Source: Betaproteobacteria bacterium
Lineage (GTDB): Bacteria; Pseudomonadota; Gammaproteobacteria; Burkholderiales; Casimicrobiaceae
Direction of reading: 5' to 3'
NCBI GenBank assembly: GCA_029884335.1
Contig: JAOUIA010000001.1
Span: 62,001 to 126,000, forward strand
DNA: 64,000 nucleotides
The position numbers and the translations under genes were made by a program. Shown piece after piece: positions 2,455-29,777 of this stretch (the first letter of the stretch is position 1; the number at the start of each line of letters is the position of its first letter). The notes below the pieces were generated by a model. The model was not told where the DNA came from. It made no database searches and was given only the letters and a program-made list of their open reading frames with translations.

Positions 2455-3261
2455 ATGCAGCGAGCGGAGATCGTGCAGGCGATAGGCGCCGACGGCGCGG
2501 AGATCGGCGCACGCGCGGCCGGGCATCTCGACCTCGCCTTCCGCCAGATGATGGTCGGGCGCGGCGCGGAAGCCGGGCGCGGATTCCTCCGCCTGGTGAC
2601 CGGCGAGCGGCATCCGCTGGGCAACGTCGCGATCGTCTCCGACGCTGGCGACCTCCAGGTCATGTGCGCCGCCGTGCTGCCGCTGCTCGAATGCGGGCAA
2701 CCGGCTGCGGTGCTGTACACGCGCGGTGTCTCGCAGGCCGTGGCCGAGGCGGTCGCGGCGCTCGGCTTTGCGGGGCCGGCGGACATGCCGGCGATGGCCG
2801 TGGACATCGCACGCCTGGCAAGCACGGAGCTGCCTCCGGGCTGCGACCTGGTCCGCGTAGGTGACTTGGCCGGGAGCCGCGCTTGGACCGCCGTGCTGGC
2901 CGAGGGGTACCCGCTGCCGCCCGGCCTCGCGCACCGCTTCTCGCCCGAGTTCCTCGGTGCCGGCGTTGCCGCCGACGCACCGCTCCAGTTCTTCGCCGTC
3001 ATGCGCGACGGCCGCGCGGTGGCGACCTCGATGCTCTGCCTCGAGGACGGGCTCGCCGGCATCTACTGCGTGGCCACGCTGCCCGGGGAGCGCGGCAAGG
3101 GCCTGGGCGCCCACGTGACGGCTGCCGCGCTGCTCGCCGCACGCCGGATCGGCTACCGCGTCGGCATCCTGCAATCGTCCCCGGAGGGACACTCGATCTA
3201 CCGGCGACTGGGCTTCGCCGACGTCGGCGCCGTGGCCATGTTCGTGCGCATGCCCGACTGA
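2455..3261 (+). CDS. GNAT-family N-acetyltransferase
   Basis: A 268-residue acetyl-CoA-dependent transferase of unknown substrate. The C-terminal half (about 130-265) is a GNAT fold: the acetyl-CoA loop is visible as PGERGKGLGAHV near residue 205, followed by the typical YRRLGF motif near 248. The N-terminal half is poorly conserved and may be a second, degenerate GNAT lobe, as in two-domain GNAT proteins. The ATG at 2455 follows a modest purine-rich stretch. It converges on nrdB, with 10 nt between the stops. The family call is firm; the substrate cannot be read from sequence. Confidence 0.82.
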   Translation: MQRAEIVQAIGADGAEIGARAAGHLDLAFRQMMVGRGAEAGRGFLRLVTGERHPLGNVAIVSDAGDLQVMCAAVLPLLECGQPAAVLYTRGVSQAVAEAVAALGFAGPADMPAMAVDIARLASTELPPGCDLVRVGDLAGSRAWTAVLAEGYPLPPGLAHRFSPEFLGAGVAADAPLQFFAVMRDGRAVATSMLCLEDGLAGIYCVATLPGERGKGLGAHVTAAALLAARRIGYRVGILQSSPEGHSIYRRLGFADVGAVAMFVRMPD

Positions 3262-3271
3262 ACGCTCCCGG

Positions 3272-4456
3272 TCAGTCCCAGTTCAGCGCGCCCCCGGTCT
3301 GGTACTCGGTGACGCGCGTCTCGAAGAAGTTCTTCTCCTTCTTGAGATCGATCATCTCCGCCATCCACGGGAACGGGTTGTCGGCCTTGTCGTAGAGCGG
3401 GTCGAGGCCGATCTGCTGGCAGCGGCGGTTGGCGATGAAGCGCAGGTACTCCTTGAACATCGGCGCGTTCAAGCCCAGCACGCCGCGCGGCATCGTGTCC
3501 TCGGCGTAGCGGTACTCGAGCTCCACGCCCCTGCGCATCAGCTCGGCGATCTCGTCGCGGAACTCGCCGGTCCACAGCTGCGGGTTCTCGAGCTTGATCG
3601 TGTTGATGAGGTCGATGCCGAAGTTGCAGTGCATCGACTCGTCGCGCAGGATGTACTGGTACTGCTCCGAGCTGCCGGTCATCTTGTTCTGCCGGCCCAT
3701 CGCGAGGATCTGCACGAACCCGACGTAGAAGAACAGCCCCTCCATGATGCAGGCGAACACGATCAGGCTCTTCAGGAGCTGCTGGTCGGCTTCCGGCGTG
3801 CCGGTGGTGAACCGCGGGTTGGTCAGCACCTCGATGAACGGAATCAGGAACTCGTCCTTGTCGCGGATCGACGGGATCTCGTGGTAGGCGTTGAAGATCT
3901 CGCCCTCGTCGAGGCCCAGGCTCTCGACGATGTACTGGTAGGCGTGCGTGTGGATCGCCTCCTCGAAGGCCTGGCGCAGCAGGTACTGGCGGCACTCGGG
4001 CGCCGTGATGTGGCGATACGTCCCCAGCACGATGTTGTTCGCGGCGAGGCTGTCGGCCGTGACGAAGAAGCCGAGGTTGCGCTTGACGATGAGCCGCTCG
4101 TCGTCGGTGAGCCCGTGCGGGTTCTTCCACAGCTCGATGTCGCGCTGCATGTTGACTTCCTGCGGCATCCAGTGGTTCGCGCAGCCGGCGAGGTACTTCT
4201 CCCACGCCCACTTGTACTTGAAGGGGACGAGCTGGTTGACGTCGGCCTGGCCGTTGATGACGCGCTTGTCCTCGAGCCGCACGCGGCCCGTCGGCGTGGC
4301 CGGCTGCTGGCGCTCGACGTCGAGGTCGTGCACCGGCTCGCGGGAGAGCAGCCCGCCGCCGATCGTGCCCACGCTCTGCGCGCGGATCGTGTCGGCGGTG
4401 CGCGGCGCCGTCGGCGCGAGCCTGGCGGCGGGGATGTCGTCTTCGAAGGTCAGCAT
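3272..4456 (-). CDS. nrdB: Class Ia ribonucleotide reductase, small (radical) subunit
   Basis: NrdB holds the diiron centre and tyrosyl radical that start reduction of ribonucleotides by NrdA in the cytoplasm. This 394-residue copy has the iron-ligand motifs EEAIHTHAY (with the radical Tyr four residues after the ligand His), EGLFFYVGF and [10 protein letters not shown], plus the C-terminal tail that docks on NrdA. The ATG at 4456 is chosen over a longer frame because AGGAG lies about 10 nt upstream and the extra N-terminus is low-complexity Arg/Ala. It is the last gene of a minus-strand run nrdA, hypothetical, DUF2442, nrdB, so it is not directly adjacent to nrdA as is usual. Confidence 0.97.
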
Positions 4457-5726: not shown

Positions 5727-8648
5727 TCATTGGCACGCTTCGCAGGTCGGGTCGTCCAACGCGCAGAACTTCGGAGCTTCGGGCTCCGCCGCTTTCGGCG
5801 CGGCCCTCGCCGCGGTGGCGGACGCGGCGATGCCGCCCGATGCCGGCACCGCGTTGAGTTCGCCGCCGCGGCCGGTCGACTTCTCGGCCGACGTCGCTGC
5901 CAGCGTGCGCAGGTAGTAGGTCGTCTTGAGGCCGCGCACCCAGGCGAGCTTGTAGGTCTCGTCGAGCTTCTTGCCGGACGCGCCCGCCATGTAGATGTTG
6001 AGGCTCTGCGCCTGGTCGATCCACTTCTGCCGCCGCGCGCCGGCTTCGACGATCCACGTCGAGTCGACCTCGAACGCGGTCGCGTAGAGCTCGCGCAGCT
6101 CCGCGGGGACGCGGTCGATGCGGGCCAGCGACCCGTCGAAGTACTTGAGGTCGGAGACCATCACGTCGTCCCACAGGTCGCGCTCCTTGAGGTCGCGCAC
6201 CAGCTGCTCGTTGACGACGGTGAACTCGCCGGAGAGGTTCGACTTGACGTAGATGTTCTGGTACTCGGGCTCGATGGACGCCGACACCCCGATGATGTTG
6301 CTGATCGTGGCGGTGGGCGCGATCGCCACGCAGTTCGAGTTGCGCATGCCGTGCTCGCGGATGCGCGCGCGCAGGCTCTCCCAGTCCATCGTCGAGGACT
6401 CGTCGACCTCGACGTAGCCGCCGCGCTCCTCGCGCAGCAGCCTGAGCGAGTCCTGCGGCAGGATGCCGCGGTCCCACAGGCTGCCGCGGAAGCTCGCGTA
6501 GCGGCCGCGCTCCTGCGCGAGCTCGGTGGACGCCCAGTAGGCGTGGTAGCAGACCGCCTCCATCGACGCGTCGGCGAAGTCCAGCGCCTCCTTCGACGCG
6601 TACGGCACGCGCAGCAGGTGCAGGCAGTCCTGGAAGCCCATGATGCCGAGCCCCACCGGGCGGTGCTTCAGGTTGCTGTTGCGCGCCTTCGCCACCGCGT
6701 AGTAGTTGATGTCGATCACGTTGTCGAGCATGCGCATCGCCGTGGCGATCGTCCGCTTGAGCTTCGCCTGGTCGAGCGCCCAGGCGCCGTCGTCGCGGCG
6801 CGCCATGTGCGCGAGCAGGTTGACCGAGCCCAGGTTGCACACCGCGATCTCGGTCGCGCTGGTGTTGAGCGTGATCTCGGTGCACAGGTTGCTGCTGTGC
6901 ACGGTGCCGACGTGCTGCTGCGGCGAGCGGACGTTGCACGCGTCCTTGAACGTGATCCACGGATGCCCGGTCTCGAAGAGCATCGACAGCATCTTGCGCC
7001 ACAGCTGCACGGCGGGGATGCGCTTGTGGAGCTTGAGCTCGCCGCGCGCCGCCTTGTCCTCGTAGCGGACGTACGCCTCCTCGAACGCGCGGCCCCACTT
7101 GTCGTGCAGGTCGGGGACGTCGGAGGGCGAGAACAGCGTCCAGTCGCCGCCCTCCGCCACGCGCTTCATGAACAGGTCGGGGATCCAGTTCGCCGTGTTC
7201 ATGTCGTGCGTGCGGCGGCGGTCGTCGCCGGTGTTCTTGCGCAGCTCGAGGAACTCCTCGACGTCGAGGTGCCAGGTCTCGAGGTAGGTGCACACGGCGC
7301 CCTTGCGCTTGCCGCCCTGGTTCACCGCCACCGCGGTGTCGTTGACCACCTTGAGGAACGGCACGACGCCCTGCGAGCGGCCGTTGGTGCCCTTGATGTG
7401 CGAGCCCATCGCGCGCACGTTGGTCCAGTCGTTGCCCAGCCCGCCGGCGAACTTGGACAGCAGCGCGTTCTCCTTGATCGCCTCGTAGATGCCGTCGAGG
7501 TCGTCGGAGACCGTGGTGAGGTAGCACGACGACAGCTGCGAGCGGTGCGTGCCCGAGTTGAACAGCGTGGGTGTCGACGACATGAAGTCGAATGTCGAGA
7601 GCACGTCGTAGAACTCGATCGCGCGCGCCTCGCGGTCGACCTCGTTGAGGGCCAGGCCCATCGCGACGCGCATGAAGAAGCACTGCGGCAGCTCGAAGCG
7701 CCGCCCGCCGGCGTACTGGTCGACGAGGAAGTAGCGGTCGTAGAGCGTCTGCAGGCCGAGGTAGCCGAACGCGAGGTCGCGCTCGGGCTTGAGCGCGGCG
7801 CCCAGCCTGGCCATGTCGTACTGCGCCAGCGCCTCGTTGAGCAGGCCGATCTTGATGCCGTGGCGGACGAACTGCGGGAAGTACTCGGCGTACTTCGTGG
7901 CCATGTCGGCCTGCGTGGCTTCCTCGCCCATCGCCTCGTAGCGCAGCGCGTCGAGCAGCAGCCGCGCGGTCACGTAGCTGTAGTGCGGGTCCTTCTCGAT
8001 CAGCGTGCGGGCGGCGAGCACCACGCACTTGCGCACCTCGTCCATCGGTACGCCGTCGTAGAGGTCCTTGAGCGTCGCCTTGAGGATGCGGTCGGGCTCG
8101 ACGTCGGCGAGCCCGGCGCAGGACTCGCGCACCAGCGCGGTCAGGCGCGCGTGGTCGAGCGGCTTGCGCACGCCGTGCTCGACGACGAAGATCGCCGGCG
8201 CGTCCGGCTGCGGCGCGCTCTTCTGCGCGGCGCGCTCCTGCGAGCGCTTCTCGCGATAGAGGACGTAGGCGCGCGCCACCTCGTGCTCGCCGCCGCGCAT
8301 GAGCGTGAGCTCGACCTGGTCCTGGATCTCCTCGATGTGGATCGCGCCGCCCTCGGGCTTGCGCTTCATCAGCGCCGCGACGACGGTGTCGGTCAGCTTC
8401 ACGACTTCGTCGCGCACGCGCGCCGACGCGGCGCCCTGGCCGCCGTTCACCGCGAGGAACGCCTTCGTCATCGCGATGGTGATCTTCATCGGCTCGAAGC
8501 CGACCACCGAGCCGTTGCGCCGGATCACCTTGTACTGCGCGAAGCGGGGATCGATCCCCGATCCCACCGGTGCGCCCGATTCCGCGGCGACGGGCTCGCG
8601 CGGAACGTTCTGGCTCGATGCGCCTGGGGCGTTGGCGGCGATGTGCAT
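5727..8648 (-). CDS. nrdA: Class Ia ribonucleotide reductase, large (catalytic) subunit
   Basis: NrdA reduces ribonucleoside diphosphates for DNA synthesis, using the radical from NrdB. The 973-residue protein is longer than the E. coli enzyme (about 760). An ATP-cone starts near residue 40 (YKVIRRNGSVVGFEPMKI), and a second ATP-cone-like segment starts near 155 (IFVVEHGVRKPLDHARL). Catalytic residues are present: the Cys in GTHRSQLSSCYLTT, Asn-Leu-Cys-Thr-Glu in SSNLCTEITLNTS, the partner Cys in AVCNLGSVNL, the radical-path Tyr pair in TTYYLRTLAA, and the C-terminal CEACQ shuttle cysteines. The ATG at 8648 follows AGGAGAG. Upstream lie two NrdR-like boxes. Confidence 0.97.
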   Translation of the reverse strand: MHIAANAPGASSQNVPREPVAAESGAPVGSGIDPRFAQYKVIRRNGSVVGFEPMKITIAMTKAFLAVNGGQGAASARVRDEVVKLTDTVVAALMKRKPEGGAIHIEEIQDQVELTLMRGGEHEVARAYVLYREKRSQERAAQKSAPQPDAPAIFVVEHGVRKPLDHARLTALVRESCAGLADVEPDRILKATLKDLYDGVPMDEVRKCVVLAARTLIEKDPHYSYVTARLLLDALRYEAMGEEATQADMATKYAEYFPQFVRHGIKIGLLNEALAQYDMARLGAALKPERDLAFGYLGLQTLYDRYFLVDQYAGGRRFELPQCFFMRVAMGLALNEVDREARAIEFYDVLSTFDFMSSTPTLFNSGTHRSQLSSCYLTTVSDDLDGIYEAIKENALLSKFAGGLGNDWTNVRAMGSHIKGTNGRSQGVVPFLKVVNDTAVAVNQGGKRKGAVCTYLETWHLDVEEFLELRKNTGDDRRRTHDMNTANWIPDLFMKRVAEGGDWTLFSPSDVPDLHDKWGRAFEEAYVRYEDKAARGELKLHKRIPAVQLWRKMLSMLFETGHPWITFKDACNVRSPQQHVGTVHSSNLCTEITLNTSATEIAVCNLGSVNLLAHMARRDDGAWALDQAKLKRTIATAMRMLDNVIDINYYAVAKARNSNLKHRPVGLGIMGFQDCLHLLRVPYASKEALDFADASMEAVCYHAYWASTELAQERGRYASFRGSLWDRGILPQDSLRLLREERGGYVEVDESSTMDWESLRARIREHGMRNSNCVAIAPTATISNIIGVSASIEPEYQNIYVKSNLSGEFTVVNEQLVRDLKERDLWDDVMVSDLKYFDGSLARIDRVPAELRELYATAFEVDSTWIVEAGARRQKWIDQAQSLNIYMAGASGKKLDETYKLAWVRGLKTTYYLRTLAATSAEKSTGRGGELNAVPASGGIAASATAARAAPKAAEPEAPKFCALDDPTCEACQ

Positions 8649-19628: not shown

Positions 19629-22600
19629 CTACGCCACGGCTACGATCGGGATGCTCTTCGCCGCGGCGGTCGACGGATCGCGGAAGCGCGCGAGCAGCTC
19701 GGCCTCCTTGCGCTTCGCCGCCTCGACGTGGCGTTCCTTCACATGGCCGAAGCCGCGAAACTCCAGCGGCAGGCGGGCGAGCTCGGTGGCCAGCGCGATG
19801 TTCGAGGGCGCGACCTTCGCGAGCAGCTCATCGACGAGCGTCTCGTAGTCGCCGATCAGCGCCCGCTCGCGCCTGCGCTCCCCGGTACGCCCGAACACGT
19901 CGAGCGCCGTGCCACGGAAGCGCCGCAGCTTGGCGAGCACGCCGAACGCCTTCATCATCCACGGGCCGTACTCGCGCTTGCGCGGCACGCCGGTCGCCGG
20001 GTCCGGGCCGGCGAGGAGCGGCGGGGCGAGGTGGAAGCGCAGCGCGAAGTCGCCCTCGAACTGCGCGGCGACGCGCTGCGCAAAGTCGGTCTGCGCGTAC
20101 AGCCGGGCGACCTCGTACTCGTCCTTGACGGCGAGCAGCTTGAAGTACGCGCGCGCGACGGCGTCGGCGAGCGCCGTCTCGCCCGGGAGCAGGGCGCGCT
20201 CGCGCTCGCGAACGCGCGCCACGAGCCTCGCATAGCGCTGCGCGTAGGCCGCGTCCTGGTAGTCGGTGAGGAACGCCACGCGACGCGCCACGACCTCGTC
20301 GAGCGTCGCGGAGAGCCGCTGCGAGTCGGGCAGCTCCTTCGCGATCGCGGCCTGCGCGACGCGCTGCGGGTCGACGGCCGCGAGGCGGCCCCACTGGAAC
20401 GAGCGCGTGTTCGCCTCGATGGCCGTGCCGTTGAGCTCGATCGCCTTCACGATCGCCGCCTCCGAGACCGGCAGGCGGCCGCGCTGGTACGCGAAGCCGA
20501 CCATGAACAGGTTCGTCGCGATCGAGTCGCCCATCAGCCCTGTCGCGAGCTTCGTCGCGTCGAGGAACTCGGCGTCGCCCGGGCCGACCGCGTCGGCGAT
20601 CTCCTGCTCCATCGAGCCGCGCGGGAAGGCGAGGTCCGGCTCGCGGGTGAACGACGCGGGCATCACCAGCGCGGTGTTCACCAGCGCCCGCGTGTGGCCC
20701 TTGCGCATCTTGGCGAGCGCCTCGATGTTGACGCTGGTGAGGATGTCGCAGGCCAGCACGAAGTCGGCCTCGCCCGCGGCGATGCGCGTCGCGTGCAGCT
20801 GCTCGGGCGAGCGCGCGATGCGCACGTGCGAGACGACCGCGCCGTTCTTCTGCGCGAGCCCGGTCATGTCGAGCACCGAGCAGCCCTTGCCCTCGAGGTG
20901 CGCGGCCATGCCGAGCAGCGCGCCGATCGTGACCACCCCGGTGCCGCCGATGCCGGTGACGAGGACGCCGTAGGGCGCCTCGCAGGAGGGGAGCGCCGGG
21001 GCGGGCAGGGCGGAGAAGTCGGCCGCCTCGGCCTTCGGCGGCTTGCGCAGCCGTCCGCCTTCGACCGTCACGAAGCTCGGGCAGAACCCCTTGAGGCACG
21101 AGTAGTCCTTGTTGCAGGACGACTGGTCGATCGTGCGCTTGCGGCCGAACTCGGTCTCCAGCGGCGCCACCGACACGCAGTTCGACTGCACGCCGCAATC
21201 GCCGCAGCCTTCGCAGACCAGCTCGTTGACGAACACGCGCTTCGCCGGGTCGGGGAACTTGCCGCGCTTGCGGCGGCGGCGCTTCTCCGCCGCGCAGGTC
21301 TGGTCGTAGAGCAGGATCGTGGTGCCGGCGACCGCGCGCAGCTCGCGCTGCACCTGGTCGAGCTCGTCGCGGTGGCGGATGGCGACGTCGCCCGCGAAGT
21401 AGCCGGACGGGTACTTCGCCGGCTCGTCGCTCACCACGACGATCCGCGCCACGCCCTCGGCGGCGCACTGCCGCGCGATGTCGGCGGGCGTGAGCGGGCC
21501 GTCGAACGGCTGGCCGCCGGTCATCGCCACGGCGTCGTTGTAGAGAACCTTGTAGGTGATGTTGACCTTCGCCGCCACCGCGGCCCGGATGGCGAGGATG
21601 CCGCTGTGGTAGTAGGTGCCGTCGCCGAGGTTCGCGAAGATGTGCTTCTCGTCGGTGAACGGCGCCTGGCCGATCCACGGCACGCCCTCGCCGCCCATGT
21701 GCGTGAACTCGGTGGTGGCGCGGTCCATCCAGATCGCCATCACGTGGCAACCGATGCCGGCGGTCGCGCGGCTGCCCTCGGGGACCTTCGTCGACGTGTT
21801 GTGCGGGCAGCCCGAGCAGAAGTAGGGGACGCGCGCGAGGCCGATCTTCGGCGTGGCGAGCGCGGCCTCCTTCGCGTTGATCCACGCCACGCGGTCCTCG
21901 ATGCGGCGGCGGTCGGCGTCGCTGGGATGCAGGCCCAGGCGCTCCATGCGCTTCGCGATCACGCGCGCGATCATCGCCGGCGTGAGCTCGCCCGCCGCGG
22001 GCAGCAGCCACTCGCCGTGCGGGCGAACCCATTCGCCCTTCTCGTCGAACTTGCCGACCACGCGCGGGCGCACGTCGTCGCGCCAGTTGTACAGCTGCTC
22101 CTTCAGCTGGTACTCGACGATCTGCCGCTTCTCCTCGACGACCAGGATCTCCTCGAGCCCCTCGGCGAAGTGCCGCACGCCCTCCGGCTCGAGCGGCCAG
22201 GGCATCGCCACCTTGAACACGCGGATGCCGAGCTCCCCGCATTCGCGCTCGGTCAGGCCGAGGTCGTCGAGCGCCTGGCGGACGTCGAGGTAGCTCTTGC
22301 CGCTGGTGACGATGCCCAGGCGCGGCCGCGGCGAGTCGATGACGATGCGATTGAGGTTGTTGACGCGGCAGTAGTGCAGCGCCGCGTACACCTTGTAGTC
22401 CTGCATCCTCGCCTCGGTGGCGAGGAAGCCGTCGGGCCAGCGGATCGACACGCCGTCGGCGGGCAGCGGGAAGTCGCCGGGCACGACGATGCTCACGCGC
22501 GCCGGATCGACGATCACCGACGCCGAACTCTCCACCGTGTCCGCCACGCACTTGAAGCCCACCCAGCAGCCCGAGTAGCGGCTCATGGCCCAGCCGTGCA

Positions 22601-23165
22601 GGCCGAGGTCGAGGATCTCCTGCACGGACGACGGATAGAGCACCGGCATCAGCGCGGCCGAGAACGCGTGGTCCGACTGGTGCGGCAGCGTCGAGGACTT
22701 CGCGGCGTGGTCGTCGCCCGCCAGCGCCAGCACGCCGCCGTGCCTGGACGTGCCCGCGTAGTTCGCGTGCTTGAACACGTCGCCGCAGCGGTCCACGCCG
22801 GGGCCCTTCCCGTACCACATGGCGAACACGCCGTCGACCTTCGCTCCGGGATGCAGGTTGACCTGCTGCGTGCCCCAGATCGAGGTTGCCGCGAGGTCCT
22901 CGTTGAGTCCCGGCTGGAAGCGCACGCTCGCGCGCTCGAGGAACGGCGCGGCCTTCCACAGCGCCTGGTCGAGCCCGCCCAGCGGCGACCCGCGGTATCC
23001 GGATACGAACCCGCCGGTGTTGAGGCCGGCCAGCCTGTCGCGCTGGCGCTGCAGGATGAGCAGGCGGACGAGCGCCTGCACGCCGGTGAGATACACGCGC
23101 CCCGCTTCGAGCGCGTACTTGTCGTCCAGCGCGACTTCGCGCAGGACCGGGGCGGCAGACGCCAT
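19629..23165 (-). CDS. Fused indolepyruvate:ferredoxin oxidoreductase
   Basis: A 1178-residue single-chain enzyme that oxidatively decarboxylates aryl- or branched 2-oxoacids to acyl-CoA, passing electrons to ferredoxin. Domains in order: an N-terminal pyrimidine-binding TPP region (TGVQALVRLLILQ, GYRGSPLGG), the TPP pyrophosphate region (NLGDGTYYHSG, then YNDAVAMTGGQP), a ferredoxin-like cysteine cluster (CEGCGDCGVQSNC, then KDYSCLKGFCP), and a C-terminal gamma domain (VTGIGGTGVVTIG, MTGLAQKNGAV). The length fits the known fused form in Proteobacteria, where separate iorA/iorB are absent. The ATG at 23165 has GGAG about 12 nt upstream; a TTG at 23183 is less likely. Confidence 0.93.
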   Translation of the reverse strand: MASAAPVLREVALDDKYALEAGRVYLTGVQALVRLLILQRQRDRLAGLNTGGFVSGYRGSPLGGLDQALWKAAPFLERASVRFQPGLNEDLAATSIWGTQQVNLHPGAKVDGVFAMWYGKGPGVDRCGDVFKHANYAGTSRHGGVLALAGDDHAAKSSTLPHQSDHAFSAALMPVLYPSSVQEILDLGLHGWAMSRYSGCWVGFKCVADTVESSASVIVDPARVSIVVPGDFPLPADGVSIRWPDGFLATEARMQDYKVYAALHYCRVNNLNRIVIDSPRPRLGIVTSGKSYLDVRQALDDLGLTERECGELGIRVFKVAMPWPLEPEGVRHFAEGLEEILVVEEKRQIVEYQLKEQLYNWRDDVRPRVVGKFDEKGEWVRPHGEWLLPAAGELTPAMIARVIAKRMERLGLHPSDADRRRIEDRVAWINAKEAALATPKIGLARVPYFCSGCPHNTSTKVPEGSRATAGIGCHVMAIWMDRATTEFTHMGGEGVPWIGQAPFTDEKHIFANLGDGTYYHSGILAIRAAVAAKVNITYKVLYNDAVAMTGGQPFDGPLTPADIARQCAAEGVARIVVVSDEPAKYPSGYFAGDVAIRHRDELDQVQRELRAVAGTTILLYDQTCAAEKRRRRKRGKFPDPAKRVFVNELVCEGCGDCGVQSNCVSVAPLETEFGRKRTIDQSSCNKDYSCLKGFCPSFVTVEGGRLRKPPKAEAADFSALPAPALPSCEAPYGVLVTGIGGTGVVTIGALLGMAAHLEGKGCSVLDMTGLAQKNGAVVSHVRIARSPEQLHATRIAAGEADFVLACDILTSVNIEALAKMRKGHTRALVNTALVMPASFTREPDLAFPRGSMEQEIADAVGPGDAEFLDATKLATGLMGDSIATNLFMVGFAYQRGRLPVSEAAIVKAIELNGTAIEANTRSFQWGRLAAVDPQRVAQAAIAKELPDSQRLSATLDEVVARRVAFLTDYQDAAYAQRYARLVARVRERERALLPGETALADAVARAYFKLLAVKDEYEVARLYAQTDFAQRVAAQFEGDFALRFHLAPPLLAGPDPATGVPRKREYGPWMMKAFGVLAKLRRFRGTALDVFGRTGERRRERALIGDYETLVDELLAKVAPSNIALATELARLPLEFRGFGHVKERHVEAAKRKEAELLARFRDPSTAAAKSIPIVAVA

Positions 23166-23350
23166 CGGGAAGTGCTCCGGCAAAGATCGTGTCTTCGGGG
23201 ATGCCGCCGGAACCGGATCGGTCCCCCGCGCGGCGCCGCGGCCACCCTTGTGGGGCCCCGCGAGTTGGGCGCGCAGTTTACGCTTCCGCCGGCCCGCTGA
23301 ACAGGTCAGAATGTCCCGGCGCCGCGCGCACCGCGCGCGGGAGGGTCGCC

Positions 23351-24028
23351 GTGACGGACTTCGCGCTGCTGCCGGCCGTCGAGATCGAGACTTCCGCGCA
23401 CCCGGACGCGGCGGTGGTGTTCCTCCACGGGCTGGGCGACGACGGCCACGGCTGGTCGGACGTCGTGCCCGCGCTGCGCCTGCCCGCCGCGCTGCGCGTG
23501 CGCTTCGTGTTTCCCCACGCGCCCGAGACGCCGGTCACGCTGAACGGCGGTTACGTCATGCCGGCGTGGTACGACCTCTACGACGCCGACCTCGGCAGCC
23601 GTGTGGACATGGCGGGCATGCGCGCCACGCGCGAGCGCATCGAGAGGCTGATCGCGCGCGAGCGCGCTCGGGGCGTCGCGGCCGGCCGGATCGTGCTGGG
23701 CGGCTTCTCGCAGGGCGGCGCGGTCGCGCTGCACGCGGCGCTGCGTCACGGGGAGCGGCTGGCCGGCGTCGCAGCGCTGTCCGCGTATCTCGCCGATGCC
23801 GCGAACCTCGTCGCGGAGGCCGCGCCGGCCAATCGCGACCTGCCGGTCTTCATGGCCCACGGCACCGCCGACGACGTCGTGCGCTACGCGTGGGGCGAGT
23901 CGGCGCGCCGCGCGCTGGAAGCCTCCGGCTGGCCGGTCGAGTGGCACGCGTACCCCATCGCCCACGGCGCGGCTGTCGAGGAAATCGAGGCGCTCGGTCG
24001 CTTCATCGCGCGCGTGCTGGCGGTCTGA
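23351..24028 (+). CDS. Phospholipase/carboxylesterase family hydrolase
   Basis: A 225-residue alpha/beta hydrolase that cuts ester bonds of small acyl esters. The oxyanion region FLHGLGDDGHGW, the nucleophile elbow GGFSQGGA, the acid in HGTADDVV and the His in YPIAHG are all present, as in EstB of Pseudomonas and related carboxylesterases. The GTG at 23351 is chosen because GGGAGGG lies 6 nt upstream; the open frame before it is GC-rich noise. It reads divergently from the fused oxidoreductase. Its 3' end overlaps the convergent glycine-rich gene by 26 nt. Confidence 0.9.
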   Translation: MTDFALLPAVEIETSAHPDAAVVFLHGLGDDGHGWSDVVPALRLPAALRVRFVFPHAPETPVTLNGGYVMPAWYDLYDADLGSRVDMAGMRATRERIERLIARERARGVAAGRIVLGGFSQGGAVALHAALRHGERLAGVAALSAYLADAANLVAEAAPANRDLPVFMAHGTADDVVRYAWGESARRALEASGWPVEWHAYPIAHGAAVEEIEALGRFIARVLAV

Positions 24029-24554
24029 CCGCAGGCATCGGCAGTTCGAGGCCGACGCTCGCGAACAGTTCGACCACCTCGGGGTCGACGCGCTGCGGCC
24101 CCGCGACGTAGGTGCCGTTCGGAGCGCCGCCGACCGCGTAGTGACCGACGGCGCCGCCGCCCACGGCGACGGTCCCGAGCGCGCCGCCGCCGAATGCGAT
24201 CCCGAGCGACAGCGCCGCGCCGCCGACCGCGGCGAGCAACCCGATCGACAGCCCGCCGAACGAGAACAGCCCGAGCGCGACGCCGCCCAGCGCGAACACG
24301 CCGCGGGCGATGCCTCCCAGCGCGACGATGCCGGTCGCGACGTCGCCGATCGCGATCACGCCCTTCGCGTGGCCGCGCGCCTGGCCCGACATCGGGTCCG
24401 GCCCCATGGCGATGTCGTAGAACGGCAGGCCGAGGAACTCGCGCTCGCTGCGGCGGCGCACGCCGAAGCGCACGAGCAGGCGGCGCTGCTCGGGCGTGAG
24501 CGCAGCCAGCGCGTCCTGCACCGCCTTCGGCGAGGGCTTGCGGGAGTCGGTCAT
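24003..24554 (-). CDS. Glycine-rich decapeptide-repeat protein
   Basis: A 183-residue protein of unknown function. Residues 1-45 are helical and charged (KAVQDALAALTPEQRRLLVR), followed by FLGLPFYDIAMGPDP. Residues 65-150 are about eight repeats of ten residues of the type xAxGxxAxGG, for example GIVALGGIARGVFALGGVAL, with glycines at exact ten-residue intervals. The repeats are hydrophobic and could form a stacked beta structure or membrane-associated surface. The tail is polar. The ATG at 24554 follows AAGGAGG and overlaps the stop of the upstream gene (ATGA). It is the last gene of the SPFH operon. Confidence 0.8.
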   Translation of the reverse strand: MTDSRKPSPKAVQDALAALTPEQRRLLVRFGVRRRSEREFLGLPFYDIAMGPDPMSGQARGHAKGVIAIGDVATGIVALGGIARGVFALGGVALGLFSFGGLSIGLLAAVGGAALSLGIAFGGGALGTVAVGGGAVGHYAVGGAPNGTYVAGPQRVDPEVVELFASVGLELPMPAVRPPARAR

Positions 24555-24745
24555 CGTCGGTCCTCCTTCGGTCGGGCGGCGTCGGCGCGCGCAGCGGAAG
24601 GCAGCGCCCCGCGCCGCGAAAGCGCTTCGCGCAGCAGGTACTCGACCTGGGCGTTGGTGCTGCGCAGCTCGGCCTGCGCGAGGCGCTCGAGCGCCGCCCA
24701 CAGTTGCGGGTCGACGCGCAGCAGGAACGCCTTGCGCTCGGCCAT
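24551..24745 (-). CDS. Ribbon-helix-helix (Arc-like) DNA-binding protein
   Basis: A 64-residue protein. Residues 1-45 (MAERKAFLLRVDPQLWAALE, then STNAQVEYLLREAL) match the Arc/MetJ ribbon-helix-helix fold: a short beta strand with alternating residues, then two helices. Such proteins bind DNA as dimers and are often antitoxins or local repressors. No toxin gene is recognised beside it; it is instead in an SPFH operon. The start lies 7 nt after the stop of the DUF1648 gene, and the stop overlaps the next start. It probably regulates this operon, perhaps at the ATGATATCAT site (26240-26249). Confidence 0.8.
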   Translation of the reverse strand: MAERKAFLLRVDPQLWAALERLAQAELRSTNAQVEYLLREALSRRGALPSAARADAARPKEDRR

Positions 24746-24752
24746 CGATGCG

Positions 24753-25250
24753 CTACGGGATGCGGCGGAACTTCGCGTACAGCGCGATCGTGCCGCCGAC
24801 CAGCGCGAGGACGAACGCGGCGAGCACAGCGAAGAACGCGGTCTCGTCCAGCCGCGCCGGCGCACGCGAGTTGGCATCGAGGATCAGCGCGTGCACGCCG
24901 ATGGCGAACAGCGCGCTCGCCAGCCCCATGGCGGCTCCGAAGCCGCGCAGCCAGGCGAGCGTCGCCTCGCGGCGCGGCGGCGCGAGCCAGTGGTCGCGGT
25001 GCGGCAGGTTCACGAACTTCGGGAACCGCGCCGGCAGGAACCCGATCGAGACCATCACCGCGAGCGGCAGCAGCAGCGAGAAGCCGAGCGCGAACCACGT
25101 GTAGCCCTCGCGCGTCATCCAGCCGTTCGCGGCCCCGCCGTGGCCGAAGTGCGTCGCCACCCTCGGCGGCAGCGCGCCCGACGTGGCGGCGACGAATGCG
25201 AGGCCGCACAGCACCACGCTGACCACGAGCCATGAAGCGAGCCGCGCCAT
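24753..25250 (-). CDS. DUF1648-type membrane protein
   Basis: A 165-residue inner-membrane protein. The pattern GALPPRVATHFGHGGAANGWMTREGY near residues 25-50 matches DUF1648 (found in SdpI-type immunity proteins and their relatives); about four hydrophobic helices are predicted near residues 5-22, 52-70, 100-120 and 138-158. The ATG at 25250 has GGGAGG about 5 nt upstream, and the gene starts 11 nt after the SPFH stop. The role is not known. The partner SPFH protein suggests membrane-domain organisation. Confidence 0.82.
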   Translation of the reverse strand: MARLASWLVVSVVLCGLAFVAATSGALPPRVATHFGHGGAANGWMTREGYTWFALGFSLLLPLAVMVSIGFLPARFPKFVNLPHRDHWLAPPRREATLAWLRGFGAAMGLASALFAIGVHALILDANSRAPARLDETAFFAVLAAFVLALVGGTIALYAKFRRIP

Positions 25251-25261
25251 GTCGCCTCCCG

Positions 25262-26182
25262 TCAGCTGTAGAGGGTGCCGGTGTTGATCACCGGCTGCAC
25301 CTCGCCCTCGGCGCACAGCACGGTCATCAGGTTGCTGACCATCGCCGCCCGGCGCTCGTCGTCGAGGTCGACGACCTTCTTCGCCGAGAGCTCGGAGAGC
25401 GCCATCTCCACCATCGACACCGCGCCGTGCACGATCTTCTGCCGCGCGGCGATGATCGCCTCGGCCTGCTGTCGGCGCAGCATCACCTGCGCGATCTCCG
25501 GCGCGTAGGCGAGGTGCGTGAGGCGCGCCTCCTCGACGATTACGCCGGCCTGGTCGAGCCGCGCCTGCAGCTCCTTCTCCAGCGCGCGCGCGACGGCCTC
25601 CGCCGAGCCGAGCAGCGTCGGCTCGCGGACCGCCATCGTGTCGTCGTCGTCGTAGGCGAACGAGGAGGCGAGGTGGCGCACGGCGGCCTCGCTCTGCACC
25701 TTGACGAAGTTCTCGTAGTCGTCGACGTCGAAGGTCGCCTTCGCGGAGTCGGCGACGTGCCAGACGACGACCGCGGCGATCTCGATCGGGTTGCCGCGCT
25801 TGTCGTTGACCTTGAGCCGCTCGCCGTTCAGGTTCCGTGCGCGCAGCGAGATCTTCTTGCGCGTGTAGAACGGGTTGGTGCCGCGCAGGCCCGCGGCGCG
25901 GCTGGTGCCGCGGTAGGCGCCGAAGAGCTGCAGGATCGCCGCCTCGTTGGGCTGCAGCGTGTACAGGCCGGCGAGGACGAACGCCGCGGCGACGATCAGC
26001 AGCGCGACAAGCAGGATGCCGGCGAGCGTGGGCCGGCCGTAGCCGACCATCCTGAAGACGCGCCACAGCGCGGCGCCGAGCAGCGCGAGCCCGATCGCGA
26101 GCGTGGCGAAGCCGTTCCAGGTGCCGATCGGTCGCTCGACGCTGGTGCCCGCGTCCGACCGGTCGCCCGTTGTGCTGGCCAT
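25262..26182 (-). CDS. SPFH/Band 7 domain membrane protein
   Basis: A 306-residue membrane-anchored scaffold of the SPFH (stomatin/prohibitin) superfamily. Two hydrophobic segments lie near residues 20-37 and 50-75; the SPFH core starts at LQPNEAAILQLFGAYRGT and runs through PIEIAAVVVWHVADSAKATF; a long helix (AVARALEKELQARL, MLRRQQAEAIIAARQKIV) follows. This group forms oligomers that organise membrane proteins or proteases. The ATG at 26182 is chosen over one 12 nt upstream because GGGAGG falls between them. It is the first gene of a four-gene run. Confidence 0.88.
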   Translation of the reverse strand: MASTTGDRSDAGTSVERPIGTWNGFATLAIGLALLGAALWRVFRMVGYGRPTLAGILLVALLIVAAAFVLAGLYTLQPNEAAILQLFGAYRGTSRAAGLRGTNPFYTRKKISLRARNLNGERLKVNDKRGNPIEIAAVVVWHVADSAKATFDVDDYENFVKVQSEAAVRHLASSFAYDDDDTMAVREPTLLGSAEAVARALEKELQARLDQAGVIVEEARLTHLAYAPEIAQVMLRRQQAEAIIAARQKIVHGAVSMVEMALSELSAKKVVDLDDERRAAMVSNLMTVLCAEGEVQPVINTGTLYS

Positions 26183-26239
26183 GGTGCCTCCCATTGGATT
26201 CGTTTTCGGGGCGGCCCGGGTGCCGGGTCGCGTATCGAA

Positions 26240-26249
26240 ATGATATCAT
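26240..26249. promoter_or_regulatory. ATGATATCAT palindrome upstream of the SPFH operon
   Basis: A 10-bp perfect palindrome in an AT-rich island (about 26233-26258) within GC-rich DNA, 58 nt before the SPFH start. Candidate operator, possibly for the ribbon-helix-helix protein of the same operon. Confidence 0.45.
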
Positions 26250-26363
26250 CAAGAAATCGCAGGTCAACGGTCCCCGACGGACGGTCGAGGGCGCGCGGTG
26301 CCCGGGGTGTCCGGCCGCCGCCGTCGACGACCCGGCAGGCCCCGTCGGGAGCGAGGTCGGAAC

Positions 26364-27290
26364 CTAGCTCGCGCGGCGAAACAGCCGCCGCACCAGATCG
26401 CGCAGCCACGCGTGCGCCGGCTCGCGCGTCGCCGTGGCGTGCCACACCATGCGCACGTCGTACTGCGGCGCCTCGCCGGGCAACGCCCACACGCGCACCG
26501 GCCAGCGCGCGGCCATCGTGCGCGCGTACATCTGCGGCACGATCGCGAGCAGGTCGGTCGTCGTCACCAGGTCCGGCAGCGCGGCGTAGTGGCGCGTGTG
26601 TACGACGGTGCGCTGCGCGATGCCCAGCGCGTCGAGCATGCGCTGCACGCTCTCGTGGTAGGTGGCCGTGGGCGAGGCGACCGCGAGCGACGCCCCCGCG
26701 AGCTGCGGCGCGGTGAGCGCGCGGCCCCGCGGCCCCGTCGCCGGTCGCCACCCGCGCGAGGTGACGGCGACGTAGCGCTCGCGGAACAGCGTCTCGCCGG
26801 CGATGTCGCGCTGCGCGGGCGACAGGATGCCGATCGCGAGGTCGATGTCGCGCGCCTCCAGCGCCGCGCCGACGGCCTCGACCGCCACCCCGGCATTGTC
26901 GACCTGCGCGAGCGGCGCCTCGCGACGCAGCGCCGCGACCAGCGGGGGCAGGAACAGGATCTCGCCCAAGTCGGACATCGACAGGCGCCACGTCGCGGCG
27001 TCGGTGGCCGGGTCGAACGTGGCCGCCTCGGCGAGCGCCGACTCCAGCGCGCGAAGGTAGGCGGTGACCGCGGGAACGACGCGCCCGGCCAGCCTCGTCG
27101 GGTGCAGGCCGGTGGGGGAGCGCACGAACAGCTCGTCGCCGAAGAACCCCCTCAGCCGGGCGAGCGCGTGGCTCACCGCCGGCTGCGACAGCGCGAGCGC
27201 GCGCCCGGCGCCGGTGACCGAGCCGGCGGCCTGGATCGCGGCCAGCACGCGCAGCAGGTTGAGGTCGAGCTGCCGGAAGTTGCCTTTCAT
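26364..27290 (-). CDS. LysR-family transcriptional regulator
   Basis: A 308-residue regulator. Residues 9-68 form the LysR winged HTH (LDLNLLRVLAAIQAAGSVTG, then SQPAVSHALARLR), and residues about 95-300 are the substrate-binding-like effector domain. It belongs to the NodD/PnbR-like subgroup with the DLNLLRV start. The gene is divergent from the 2-oxoacid oxidoreductase operon, with 111 nt between starts, which makes that operon its likely target. The intergenic region holds palindromes suited to LysR binding. The effector is unknown; a 2-oxoacid or precursor is a reasonable guess. Confidence 0.9.
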   Translation of the reverse strand: MKGNFRQLDLNLLRVLAAIQAAGSVTGAGRALALSQPAVSHALARLRGFFGDELFVRSPTGLHPTRLAGRVVPAVTAYLRALESALAEAATFDPATDAATWRLSMSDLGEILFLPPLVAALRREAPLAQVDNAGVAVEAVGAALEARDIDLAIGILSPAQRDIAGETLFRERYVAVTSRGWRPATGPRGRALTAPQLAGASLAVASPTATYHESVQRMLDALGIAQRTVVHTRHYAALPDLVTTTDLLAIVPQMYARTMAARWPVRVWALPGEAPQYDVRMVWHATATREPAHAWLRDLVRRLFRRAS

Positions 27291-27317
27291 GCATCAAAAG
27301 AATACACCAAATTAGAA

Positions 27318-27358
27318 CAATCGATTGGACGAATGTGCGGCGCCCGCCTACATTCGTC
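27318..27358. promoter_or_regulatory. Palindromic sites between the LysR gene and the oxidoreductase operon
   Basis: CAATCGATTG (27318-27327) is a 10-bp palindrome; GACGAATGT (27328-27336) and ACATTCGTC (27350-27358) form a perfect 9-bp inverted repeat. They sit in the only AT-rich stretch of the gap and are probable LysR binding sites. Confidence 0.55.
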
Positions 27359-27401
27359 GGCGAAGCGCCCGCGCAGGCGGCGGGCCGGACGGGAGGCAGG
27401 C

Positions 27402-27962
27402 GTGCTCGAGATCGTCATCCAGGGCCGGGGCGGGCAGGGCGCGCAGACCGCGGGCAACCTGCTCGCGGCGGCGTTCTTCGGCGAAGGCGCTCACGTGCAG
27501 AGCTTCGCGAGCTACGGCGGCGCGCGCCGCGGCACGCCGGTGTCCTCGTTCATCCGCGCCGACGTCGCCCCGGTGCGCCTGCGCTGCGACATCGAGCGCG
27601 CCGACGCGATCCTCTGCTTCGACGCCACGCTGCTCGAAGGCCGCCTGCTCGCGGCGGCGGACGAGCGCACGGTGATCGTCGTCAACTCCGGACGCGGCGT
27701 GGCCGACTTCGCGCGCACGTTGCCCGGGTATCGCGTGGTCCCCATCGACGCCATCGGCATCTCGCTGCGCTGCGGCCTCGGCCGCATAGTCAACTCCGCG
27801 CTGCTCGGCGCGCTCGCCCGCGCGGTCGGATCGCCGGCGCTGGGCTCGCTGGAGCGCACGATCGCCGAGCGCTCGCCGAAGCTCACGCAGGAGAACCTCG
27901 CCGCGTGCGAGGAGGGCTTCCGCGCGGCCGACGCGGTGCTCGGCGAGGGAGTCGCGGCATGA
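27402..27962 (+). CDS. 2-oxoacid:acceptor oxidoreductase, gamma subunit
   Basis: A 186-residue gamma subunit (PorG/PadE type) that helps bind CoA in pyruvate/phenylglyoxylate/2-oxoacid oxidoreductases. The start IVIQGRGGQGAQTAGNLLA and the following SFASYGGARRGTPV are hallmark motifs. The GTG at 27402 is preferred because GGGAGG lies 6 nt upstream. It is first in a four-gene operon with the FAD/ferredoxin fusion, alpha and beta subunits. The stop TGA abuts the MITE-like element at 27963-28091. Confidence 0.9.
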   Translation: MLEIVIQGRGGQGAQTAGNLLAAAFFGEGAHVQSFASYGGARRGTPVSSFIRADVAPVRLRCDIERADAILCFDATLLEGRLLAAADERTVIVVNSGRGVADFARTLPGYRVVPIDAIGISLRCGLGRIVNSALLGALARAVGSPALGSLERTIAERSPKLTQENLAACEEGFRAADAVLGEGVAA

Positions 27963-28097: not shown

Positions 28098-29777
28098 ATG
28101 AACTCCATCCCACCGATCTGGACGACCGCGACCACCGAGTCGATCCGCACCGGCACCTGGCGCGCCGCGCTGCCGCGGCACGTGCAGGCGTCCTCGCCCT
28201 GCCGCGAAGCGTGCCCCGTGAGCGGCGACATCGCGACGTGGATCGGCCTCGCCCGCGAGCGCGACTTCCGCGGCGCGTGGGAGGCGTTGACGCGTCACAA
28301 CCCGTTCCCCGCGATCGCCGGGCGCATCTGCCACCACCCCTGCGAGGCTGCGTGCAACCGCGCGGGCTTCGACGAGGCGCTGTCGATCTGCAAGCTCGAA
28401 CGCTTCGTCGGAGACCTCGCGATCGAGCGGGGCTGGGCGTTCGAAGCGCCCACAGTCGAGCGCGAGGAGCGCGTTGCGATCGTCGGCGGCGGCCCCGCCG
28501 GCCTCTCCGCGGCGTTCCAGCTGCGCCGCCTCGGCTACCGGGTCACCCTCGTCGAGGCGCGCGGCGAATTGGGCGGTCTCATGCGCCACGGCATCCCGTC
28601 CTACCGCCTCGCACGCGAGGTGCTCGACGCCGAGGTCGCGCGCGTCGTCGCGCTCGGCGTCGACGTGCGCCTGAACGCGAAGCCGGAGGCGGCCCCCGCG
28701 TGGGCGGAGCTTCGCCGGACGCACGACGCCGTGTTCGTCGCCACCGGCGCGCAGCGGCAGAAGCGCCTGCCCGCGCTCGACTACGGCCAGCCGTGGGTGG
28801 CCGACGGCGCGGCGTGGCTCGCGAGCGCGAACGCGGGCGAGATTCCCGCGCTCGGCAAGCGCCTCGTGGTGATCGGCGGAGGCAGCGCGGCGCTCGACGT
28901 CGCCCGCAGCGCCCGGCGCGCCGGCCACGAGGTCACGCTGCTTGCGCTGGAGGCGCGCGGGCAGATGCCGGCGCAACGCGAGGAAGTCGACGAGGCGCTG
29001 GAGGAGGGCATCGCGCTGGTCGATGGCGCGATGCTCCAGGAGGCCTCGCACGCCGGAGGCGAGGTGCGCCTGGCCTGCCGGAGAGTGCGGTTCGTGCCCG
29101 GCGAGCGGCGCGGCCAGTTCAGCGTAGTGCCGTTCGCGGACGGCGCGTTCGAGCTTCGCGCCGACGCGATCGTCACCTCGATCGGCCAGGACCCCGACAC
29201 CGCCGCGCTGGGCGACGGCGTCGCGCTGGACGGCTCGCTGGTGGCCGTCGACGCGCAGCAGGCGACCGCGCGCGACGACACCTGGGCCGGCGGCGACGTC
29301 GCCAGCATGGCGCGCTTCGTCACCGACGCGATCGGGCAGGGCAAGCGTGCGGCGTTCGCCATCGACCGCGCGCTGCGTGCCCGGCGCGGCGAGGCGCCGG
29401 CGGCGGAGCGCTGGCGGCCCGGCCCGGCGGCGGCCATCGCCATCGAAGCGAGCGTGCCGCTGCCGGCGATCGCCACGCACGCCTACGCGCCGCAGGCGCG
29501 CGCGGCGGCGCGACGCCTCGAGCCGGCCGCGCGGCTCGCCTCCGGCGCCGAGGTGCAGCTGGCGCTCGACATCGAGCAGGCGCTCGCCGAGACGACGCGC
29601 TGCTTCTCGTGCGGTACCTGCATCCGCTGCGACACCTGCGTGGCCGTGTGCCCGGATCTCGCCGTCGTGCGCGAGGGCGACGGCTACCGCGTGCTGGGCG
29701 ACTACTGCAAGGGGTGCGGGCTGTGCGTCAAGGAGTGCCCGACGGGTTCGATGGATATGGTCCAAGAGGTACGGTAG
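28098..29777 (+). CDS. FAD/NAD oxidoreductase fused to a 2x[4Fe-4S] ferredoxin domain
   Basis: A 559-residue electron-transfer subunit. The N-terminus is GltD-like with Fe-S cysteines (CREACPVSGD near 35, CHHPCEAACNRAG near 79). FAD binds at IVGGGPAGL near 128, and NAD(P) probably at VIGGGSAALDVA near 257. Residues about 495-550 are a bacterial ferredoxin-like domain with two clusters (CIRCDTCVAVCP and CKGCGLCVKECP), the usual job of a separate delta subunit. In phenylglyoxylate:NAD oxidoreductase, FAD and ferredoxin-type subunits are separate genes, so the fusion is notable. The ATG at 28098 takes its ribosome site from the end of the repeat element. Confidence 0.88.
   Translation: MNSIPPIWTTATTESIRTGTWRAALPRHVQASSPCREACPVSGDIATWIGLARERDFRGAWEALTRHNPFPAIAGRICHHPCEAACNRAGFDEALSICKLERFVGDLAIERGWAFEAPTVEREERVAIVGGGPAGLSAAFQLRRLGYRVTLVEARGELGGLMRHGIPSYRLAREVLDAEVARVVALGVDVRLNAKPEAAPAWAELRRTHDAVFVATGAQRQKRLPALDYGQPWVADGAAWLASANAGEIPALGKRLVVIGGGSAALDVARSARRAGHEVTLLALEARGQMPAQREEVDEALEEGIALVDGAMLQEASHAGGEVRLACRRVRFVPGERRGQFSVVPFADGAFELRADAIVTSIGQDPDTAALGDGVALDGSLVAVDAQQATARDDTWAGGDVASMARFVTDAIGQGKRAAFAIDRALRARRGEAPAAERWRPGPAAAIAIEASVPLPAIATHAYAPQARAAARRLEPAARLASGAEVQLALDIEQALAETTRCFSCGTCIRCDTCVAVCPDLAVVREGDGYRVLGDYCKGCGLCVKECPTGSMDMVQEVR

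Follow-up and report, generated by a model that had tools for sequence, protein, structure and literature searches.

SPFH proteins are known from bacterial operons in which the partner gene encodes NfeD, such as YbbK/QmcA-YbbJ, YqiK-YqiJ, and YuaG-YuaF (Hinderhofer et al. 2009, PMC2636767). According to that survey, SPFH subfamilies 6-12 have no documented member proteins, and in the subgroups that are not paired with NfeD the accompanying genes lack identifiable conservation to other SPFH operons. Passages of a 2026 study of Pseudomonas aeruginosa describe its nine SPFH proteins as largely dispensable in the laboratory and without conserved genomic context (PMC13086221). The roles of bacterial SPFH proteins and the timing of their production are poorly known. 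Here we describe an SPFH operon in a stretch of 64,000 nucleotides, below called the window, from a Betaproteobacteria bacterium (contig JAOUIA010000001.1, positions 62,001 to 126,000). Like the SPFH-NfeD operons it is a conserved operon that pairs an SPFH membrane protein with a second gene, but this partner is a ribbon-helix-helix (RHH) DNA-binding protein with a predicted operator. No NfeD was found in the four proteins of the operon, in five flanking open reading frames (ORFs), or in the proteins of two alignments of middle genes, A3 (17) and A4 (12). We consider it quite probable, from comparison of related loci, that this is a compact SPFH operon under its own RHH repressor, which would bind a three-box operator lying over the promoter. 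Each of the protein classes is known, and what we would file as new is an SPFH operon that appears to have its own repressor in the place of NfeD. An initial annotation of the window had put forward the four genes as its best candidate for an undescribed system. In the open-licence PMC literature, consulted largely as titles and passages, no description of an SPFH-RHH pairing with an operator was found.

Two other described systems are close to parts of the locus. In Bacillus subtilis, SdpI sequesters the autorepressor SdpR at the membrane (reviewed in PMC1626106). The likeness to our locus is that a single operon encodes both a polytopic membrane protein and an autorepressor, the latter proposed in our case. 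SdpI carries DUF1648. SdpR is not known to be an RHH protein, and no SPFH protein is known from SdpR-SdpI. The two also differ in that the DUF1648 gene is absent from most loci of the SPFH-RHH unit. The Arc repressor of phage P22 shares with our protein the RHH fold and an aligned RSVN turn, its operator complex is the best fold match, and the boxes lie about one helical turn apart, as they do for Arc. However, the operator is another one, the RHH protein here is cellular and not from a phage, and the sequence match is weak (E 0.18). QmcA, HflK, and stomatin are the nearest solved relatives of the SPFH profile, but they are distant, and no NfeD partner was seen here.

Linkage of the SPFH and RHH genes

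The four ORFs named in the initial annotation were all confirmed and all lie on the minus strand, which had not been given. The layout was exact, with gaps of 11 nt and 7 nt followed by a 4-nt overlap along the operon:

25262-26182, minus strand, SPFH/Band 7 protein, 306 aa (ORF; Pfam Band_7; hydropathy)
24753-25250, minus strand, DUF1648-like membrane protein, 165 aa, the middle gene (ORF; Pfam; hydropathy)
24551-24745, minus strand, Arc-like RHH protein, 64 aa (ORF; conserved linkage; family and fold matches)
24003-24554, minus strand, glycine-rich repeat (decapeptide) protein, 183 aa, accessory and rare (ORF)

Judged by its recurrence, the conserved unit is the SPFH gene, the Arc-like RHH gene, and the predicted operator in front of them, and not the set of four genes. 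Exact SPFH peptide patterns gave 369 confirmed relatives in the genome collection, and for the best 80 of these the neighbours were scored by tblastn with the four window proteins. An RHH gene was found downstream of SPFH in 79 of the 80 loci, which makes a chance origin of the adjacency unlikely; in the remaining one (L011) the contig ends 72 nt past the SPFH match. The distance from the SPFH stop to the RHH match was at most 100 nt in 34 of the 79 loci.

The pairing was also seen in a sample of 200 genomes drawn evenly over the phylum, our own genome included (limits E <= 1e-40 for SPFH and 1e-6 for RHH; some first-look candidates were left unscored in these counts). The SPFH profile matched 14 of these genomes and the RHH profile 13. 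All 12 strong SPFH relatives (E <= 5.5e-116) had an RHH gene (E <= 2.4e-18) about 10-520 nt downstream and in the same orientation, and the two weaker ones (E 1.5e-83 and 1.9e-73) had none. Among 145 genomes of Verrucomicrobiota, the phylum of Pelagicoccus mobilis, SPFH was present in four, each with both RHH and the exact operator site; one of the four is L037 (Pelagicoccus mobilis KCTC 13126), already in the set of 80. Another culturable host of the module is Rivibacter subsaxonicus DSM 19570 (L048). At the limits used there was a single RHH match and a single SPFH match per genome in both samples. Plasmid and phage records with an SPFH relative numbered 29, and out of 17 chosen for breadth RHH was present in 10 and absent in 7. 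By taxonomy, the records with RHH include, in addition to Pseudomonadota, members of Deinococcota, Actinomycetota, Bacillota (Clostridia), and Bacteroidota. The phyla become eight when Verrucomicrobiota, Acidobacteriota, and Planctomycetota are added from record titles, many of which belong to bins whose assignments may be wrong.

Within the genus the spread is patchy. The RHH gene was found at E <= 5.7e-26 in 10 of 22 genomes, our own included; many of these genomes are incomplete bins. Of the 11 strong RHH loci, 10 have SPFH, the exception being G361. In one genome (G357) the SPFH-DUF1648-RHH module is present twice (L015 and L016). In an SPFH tree of 86 rows the phyla largely cohere; Verrucomicrobiota needs three changes and each of the other three groups one, with the placement of five long rows being unsure. 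Since the phyla stay largely together, frequent transfer between them is disfavoured, and we lean to loss as the probable explanation of the patchy spread.

The predicted operator

Upstream of the SPFH gene of the window, the following elements can be read:

26241-26248, minus strand, palindrome TGATATCA, central box of the proposed operator (conservation across loci)
26240-26249, minus strand, ATGATATCAT, which contains TGATATCA
26252-26259, minus strand, weaker flanking box CGATTTCT, 5 of 8 positions, 11 bp upstream of the central box
26230-26237, minus strand, weaker flanking box CGATACGC, 4 of 8 positions, 11 bp downstream of the central box
26240-26267, minus strand, promoter-like sequence TTGACC (26267-26262), 16-bp spacer, TATCAT (26245-26240) (sequence; shuffles)

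The -10-like element of this promoter falls inside the palindrome. In 75 of 79 loci an exact copy of TGATATCA lies no more than 300 nt ahead of SPFH, as compared to 9 of 79 for the runner-up 8-bp palindrome; the count leaves out L050, where the contig starts 25 nt upstream, and includes L011. Three of the four loci without the exact upstream site (L014, L023, and L028) carry one-mismatch sites, and the fourth, L046, has the exact site 1.1 kb upstream, ahead of an extra 358-codon ORF that precedes SPFH, so that by its position the displaced site still leads the presumed operon. This is one of two copies that were found outside the upstream windows, in 716,520 bases making up the remainder of the loci, the other being a lone box in L043.

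The weaker boxes on both sides of the palindrome are a common feature of the loci. Over 77 sites, the window included and L033 counted twice, the mean match to the box was 4.77 of 8 at -11 and 5.18 of 8 at +11, and never above 2.81 of 8 at the other offsets from 8 to 20. In Arc the operator boxes are also about one helical turn apart and the dimers cooperate, and by analogy such a three-box array is as expected for cooperating RHH dimers. A -35-like hexamer is located 16-18 bp ahead of a hexamer overlapping the box at 47 of the 77 sites, as compared to 14.8 expected in shuffles, and the other 30 sites lack this promoter spacing. The Bacteroidota loci L122, L128, and L129 have a drifted operator, made up of two copies of TAATATCA, two copies of TGATATTA, or the exact box and then TAATATCA, and the 11-bp tandem spacing is retained.

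The own assembly (3.66 Mb) contains ATGATATCAT once and TGATATCA twice, the second copy being located elsewhere and without flanking boxes. The operator therefore looks like a private switch rather than part of a regulon, and a regulon beyond the operon was rejected as a candidate. The 8-bp core is identical from Clostridia and actinomycetes to betaproteobacteria, which in our judgement is unusual, and it can serve as a sequence tag to find and annotate the module.

We made comparisons of loci with and without the RHH gene. The exact upstream site was present in 11 of 12 loci with RHH in the phylum sample and in 7 of 10 among the plasmid and phage records, but in none of the SPFH loci without RHH (0 of 2 and 0 of 7, respectively). 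Pooled, this is 18 of 22 as compared to 0 of 9 (Fisher p 3.5e-5, calculated on rows that are related). All four RHH loci without the exact site (L090, L122, L129, and L133) have one-mismatch boxes, and three of them (L090, L122, and L129) have two such boxes 11 bp apart. Comparison of the loci shows in this way that the genes are linked, that a putative operator stands in front of them, and that the presence of this operator goes with the RHH gene rather than with SPFH.

The encoded proteins and the middle genes

An alignment of 43 RHH sequences, from the window and 42 of the 79 loci, has eight invariant residues: K5, R10, A23, R28, S29, N31, E35, and L38. The RSxN turn is invariant throughout, and in Arc the corresponding strand and turn residues touch DNA. 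The tail past approximately residue 45 is not conserved. Among the 43 members, matches were obtained to ParD_like (33), HicB (33, weak), RHH_5 (24, best E 2.6e-7), and Arc (11), whereas the window protein itself matched RHH families weakly, the best at E 0.0041, and under all cut-offs. These matches appear to fit an RHH protein without a family of its own. The names that NCBI gives to single members are SPFH domain-containing protein, Arc family DNA-binding protein, HicB family antitoxin, and hypothetical protein. The AlphaFold monomer has helices at residues 13-26 and 30-45 (mean pLDDT 75.9) and no strand assigned, because the ribbon needs a dimer. The best match of this model in the PDB (Foldseek) is the Arc repressor-operator complex, with a probability of 1.00 (E 0.078), and the top rows are Arc, CopASO, and AmrZ. 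From the family matches of the members and the model together we assign a ribbon-helix-helix fold to the protein. When RHH residue 8 is set against the operator flank, a T after the box is accompanied by Leu in 17 of 20 cases and Pro by C in 24 of 27, but relatedness was not removed from these counts and a covariation is not claimed.

The SPFH protein of the window matches Band_7 well above the cut-off (E 9.4e-23, 81.6 bits compared to 23.6 in Pfam). It has two N-terminal hydrophobic segments by hydropathy, at approximately residues 25-46 and 53-71, and is a putative inner-membrane scaffold. The start is likely to be the ATG at 26182, with GGGAGG 4 nt ahead of it; an alternative would be the ATG at 26194. 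By sequence, the solved structures nearest to the profile are QmcA (E 2.6e-4), HflK (1.3e-3), and stomatin (9.3e-3).

The DUF1648-like protein has four hydrophobic segments by hydropathy, and its DUF1648 match (27.4 bits) is just below the Pfam cut-off of 28.7. No SdpI domain was matched in a family scan of this protein and the A4 members, and the suggested relation of the multi-span protein to immunity proteins is not supported beyond the sub-threshold DUF1648 match. Between SPFH and RHH, 15 of the 79 loci have DUF1648, 20 have a PH-like gene, one has both, and 43 have neither; the gap of the latter is at most 250 nt in 39 loci and longer in four. The counts were made by aligned position, with profiles from 12 (A4, DUF1648) and 17 (A3, PH-like) sequences that nearly all come from the counted loci, and these match by construction. 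The PH-like name comes from one of the 17 A3 members, which matches bPH_5 (E 1.3e-14), and from a reading of the alignment. An example is L030, where a PH-like membrane protein gene at 5916-6371 takes the place of DUF1648, and another PH-like locus, L017, has by reading a CPBP-like intramembrane protease gene at 3166-4122 between SPFH and RHH.

The co-occurrence of DUF1648 expected from the initial annotation holds in all 11 strong RHH loci of the genus, but elsewhere a PH-like gene or some other gene stands at this position, or there is none. By its distribution (16 of 79 loci), DUF1648 is a lineage-specific insert. Small membrane genes placed exactly between SPFH and RHH, found in 36 of 79 loci, are at most suggestive of a role in the release of repression.

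Proposed mechanism, alternatives and surroundings

We infer that the array is the binding site of the RHH protein and that the promoter is blocked in this way. RHH dimers would occupy the three boxes, the perfect TGATATCA and a weaker copy 11 bp on each side, and by covering the core promoter they would keep expression low. The working part of the module would be the SPFH protein, assembled in the inner membrane. Different lineages may have inserted differing small membrane proteins between SPFH and RHH, DUF1648 in our case, and some may have added further genes at the end, here the glycine repeat protein. The suggestion of the initial annotation that a membrane scaffold and its own DNA-binding protein share an operon, one which is probably self-regulated, is supported. 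Having a regulator of its own and a sharp operator, this SPFH subfamily would make it possible to trace the condition that requires the scaffold by a promoter reporter.

How the repression would be lifted is more speculative. With low confidence we suggest that the SPFH assembly or its small partner senses membrane stress, and that the repressor would then be pulled off and the operon turned on. By analogy, relief of repression by membrane proteins in the manner of SdpI-SdpR is plausible. The more specific idea is that of a dedicated membrane-state sensor in at least eight phyla, in which RHH would be titrated to a perturbed membrane by the SPFH assembly, alone or together with a small DUF1648 or PH-like partner. 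We regard it as doubtful because a plain homeostatic loop accounts for the data equally well. If it were true, the scaffold would gauge its own demand and set its own amount through the operator.

In such a homeostatic loop the RHH protein would be a constitutive negative autoregulator that holds the SPFH copy number, with no membrane signal or contact. The pairing of operator and RHH requires nothing further, and the short gap in 34 of 79 loci (<=100 nt) suggests that the middle membrane genes are dispensable for control. The loop leaves the pairing with one SPFH subfamily across phyla unexplained, given that the four other Band_7 places in our genome have neither RHH nor the site within the 3.5 kb examined. 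We hold the chances for and against it to be about equal, and as it is a narrower version of the repressor reading, our confidences in the two overlap.

Some observations weigh against the SPFH operon being under its own RHH repressor. The fold-match E-values of the RHH model are weak, all being 0.078 or higher. SPFH proteins without RHH are on average more distant, and the joint loss of site and RHH is partly confounded with this distance; the confounding is tempered by SPFH of Deinococcus radiophilus (348 bits) and D. proteolyticus (340 bits), which are without RHH and site, as compared to SPFH of Bosea (331 bits), which has both. An exact TGATATCA also occurs in three of the nine RHH-less stretches, though in none of them within the upstream window: in L126 it lies about 1.07 kb ahead of SPFH, and in L134 and L135 downstream of it. 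G171 of the phylum sample has a weak RHH match (9.3e-8, one internal stop) and no SPFH match. G361 (L149/L114), of our own genus, has DUF1648-RHH without SPFH and no TGATATCA anywhere in the assembly; by reading, an MsrB-like frame is located upstream of its two genes.

The last of these cases could also mean that a different, widespread regulator binds the palindrome and that RHH has another role, as RHH is there present without any exact site. This is unlikely, because the distribution of the upstream site tracks RHH rather than SPFH, and because our genome has hardly any other copy of it. RHH proteins commonly act as antitoxins, and a module with RHH as the antitoxin and SPFH or DUF1648 as the toxin would agree with the weak matches to ParD_like and HicB (33 of 43 each) and with the one member that NCBI names a HicB family antitoxin. 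However, no toxin family was found for the four window proteins in Pfam, NCBIfam, and PADLOC, the unconserved tail is unlike a toxin-binding one, and SPFH occurs without RHH, which makes this arrangement very unlikely. A defence or toxin-antitoxin reading was rejected, with no partner in these three databases; the best PADLOC match of the four proteins, to a TPR model, was at E 0.023, and there was none at E <= 0.01.

The claim that all four genes form one system goes against their distribution. The glycine repeat protein matches no Pfam, NCBIfam, or PADLOC family, and its gene is present in only 2 of 22 genomes of the genus, the own included, so the four-gene co-occurrence by which the initial annotation wanted the claim to be judged breaks down at this gene; DUF1648 is found in 16 of 79 loci. 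One further genome, which belongs to the same genus, has the full order (L008, the same locus as L106 and L145), and among the 80 loci L008 alone has the decapeptide gene beside the operon. Relatives of the decapeptide gene occur in four more of 274 genomes of the class (L137-L140), with no RHH match in the stretches of 2.2-3.4 kb. A model of the protein from two sequences was unusable as a fold guide (mean pLDDT 37.7). A functional system of four genes, perhaps for defence, would suit the tight packing and the identical order in L008, but by the rarity of the decapeptide gene, the PADLOC result, and the metabolic or regulatory nature of all five flanking ORFs scanned it appears largely refuted, and we consider it extremely improbable.

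The surroundings of the operon include three further genes:

19629-23183, minus strand, ORF with POR and DUF6537 domains, by reading indolepyruvate ferredoxin oxidoreductase-like
26298-27962, plus strand, second POR ORF (family scan)
28098-29777, plus strand, FAD/NAD plus 4Fe-4S protein (family scan)

These ORFs enclose the SPFH operon together with an esterase and a LysR gene. The carboxylesterase gene (23189-24028, plus strand) is convergent with the operon and overlaps the 3' end of the decapeptide gene by 26 nt (24003-24028).

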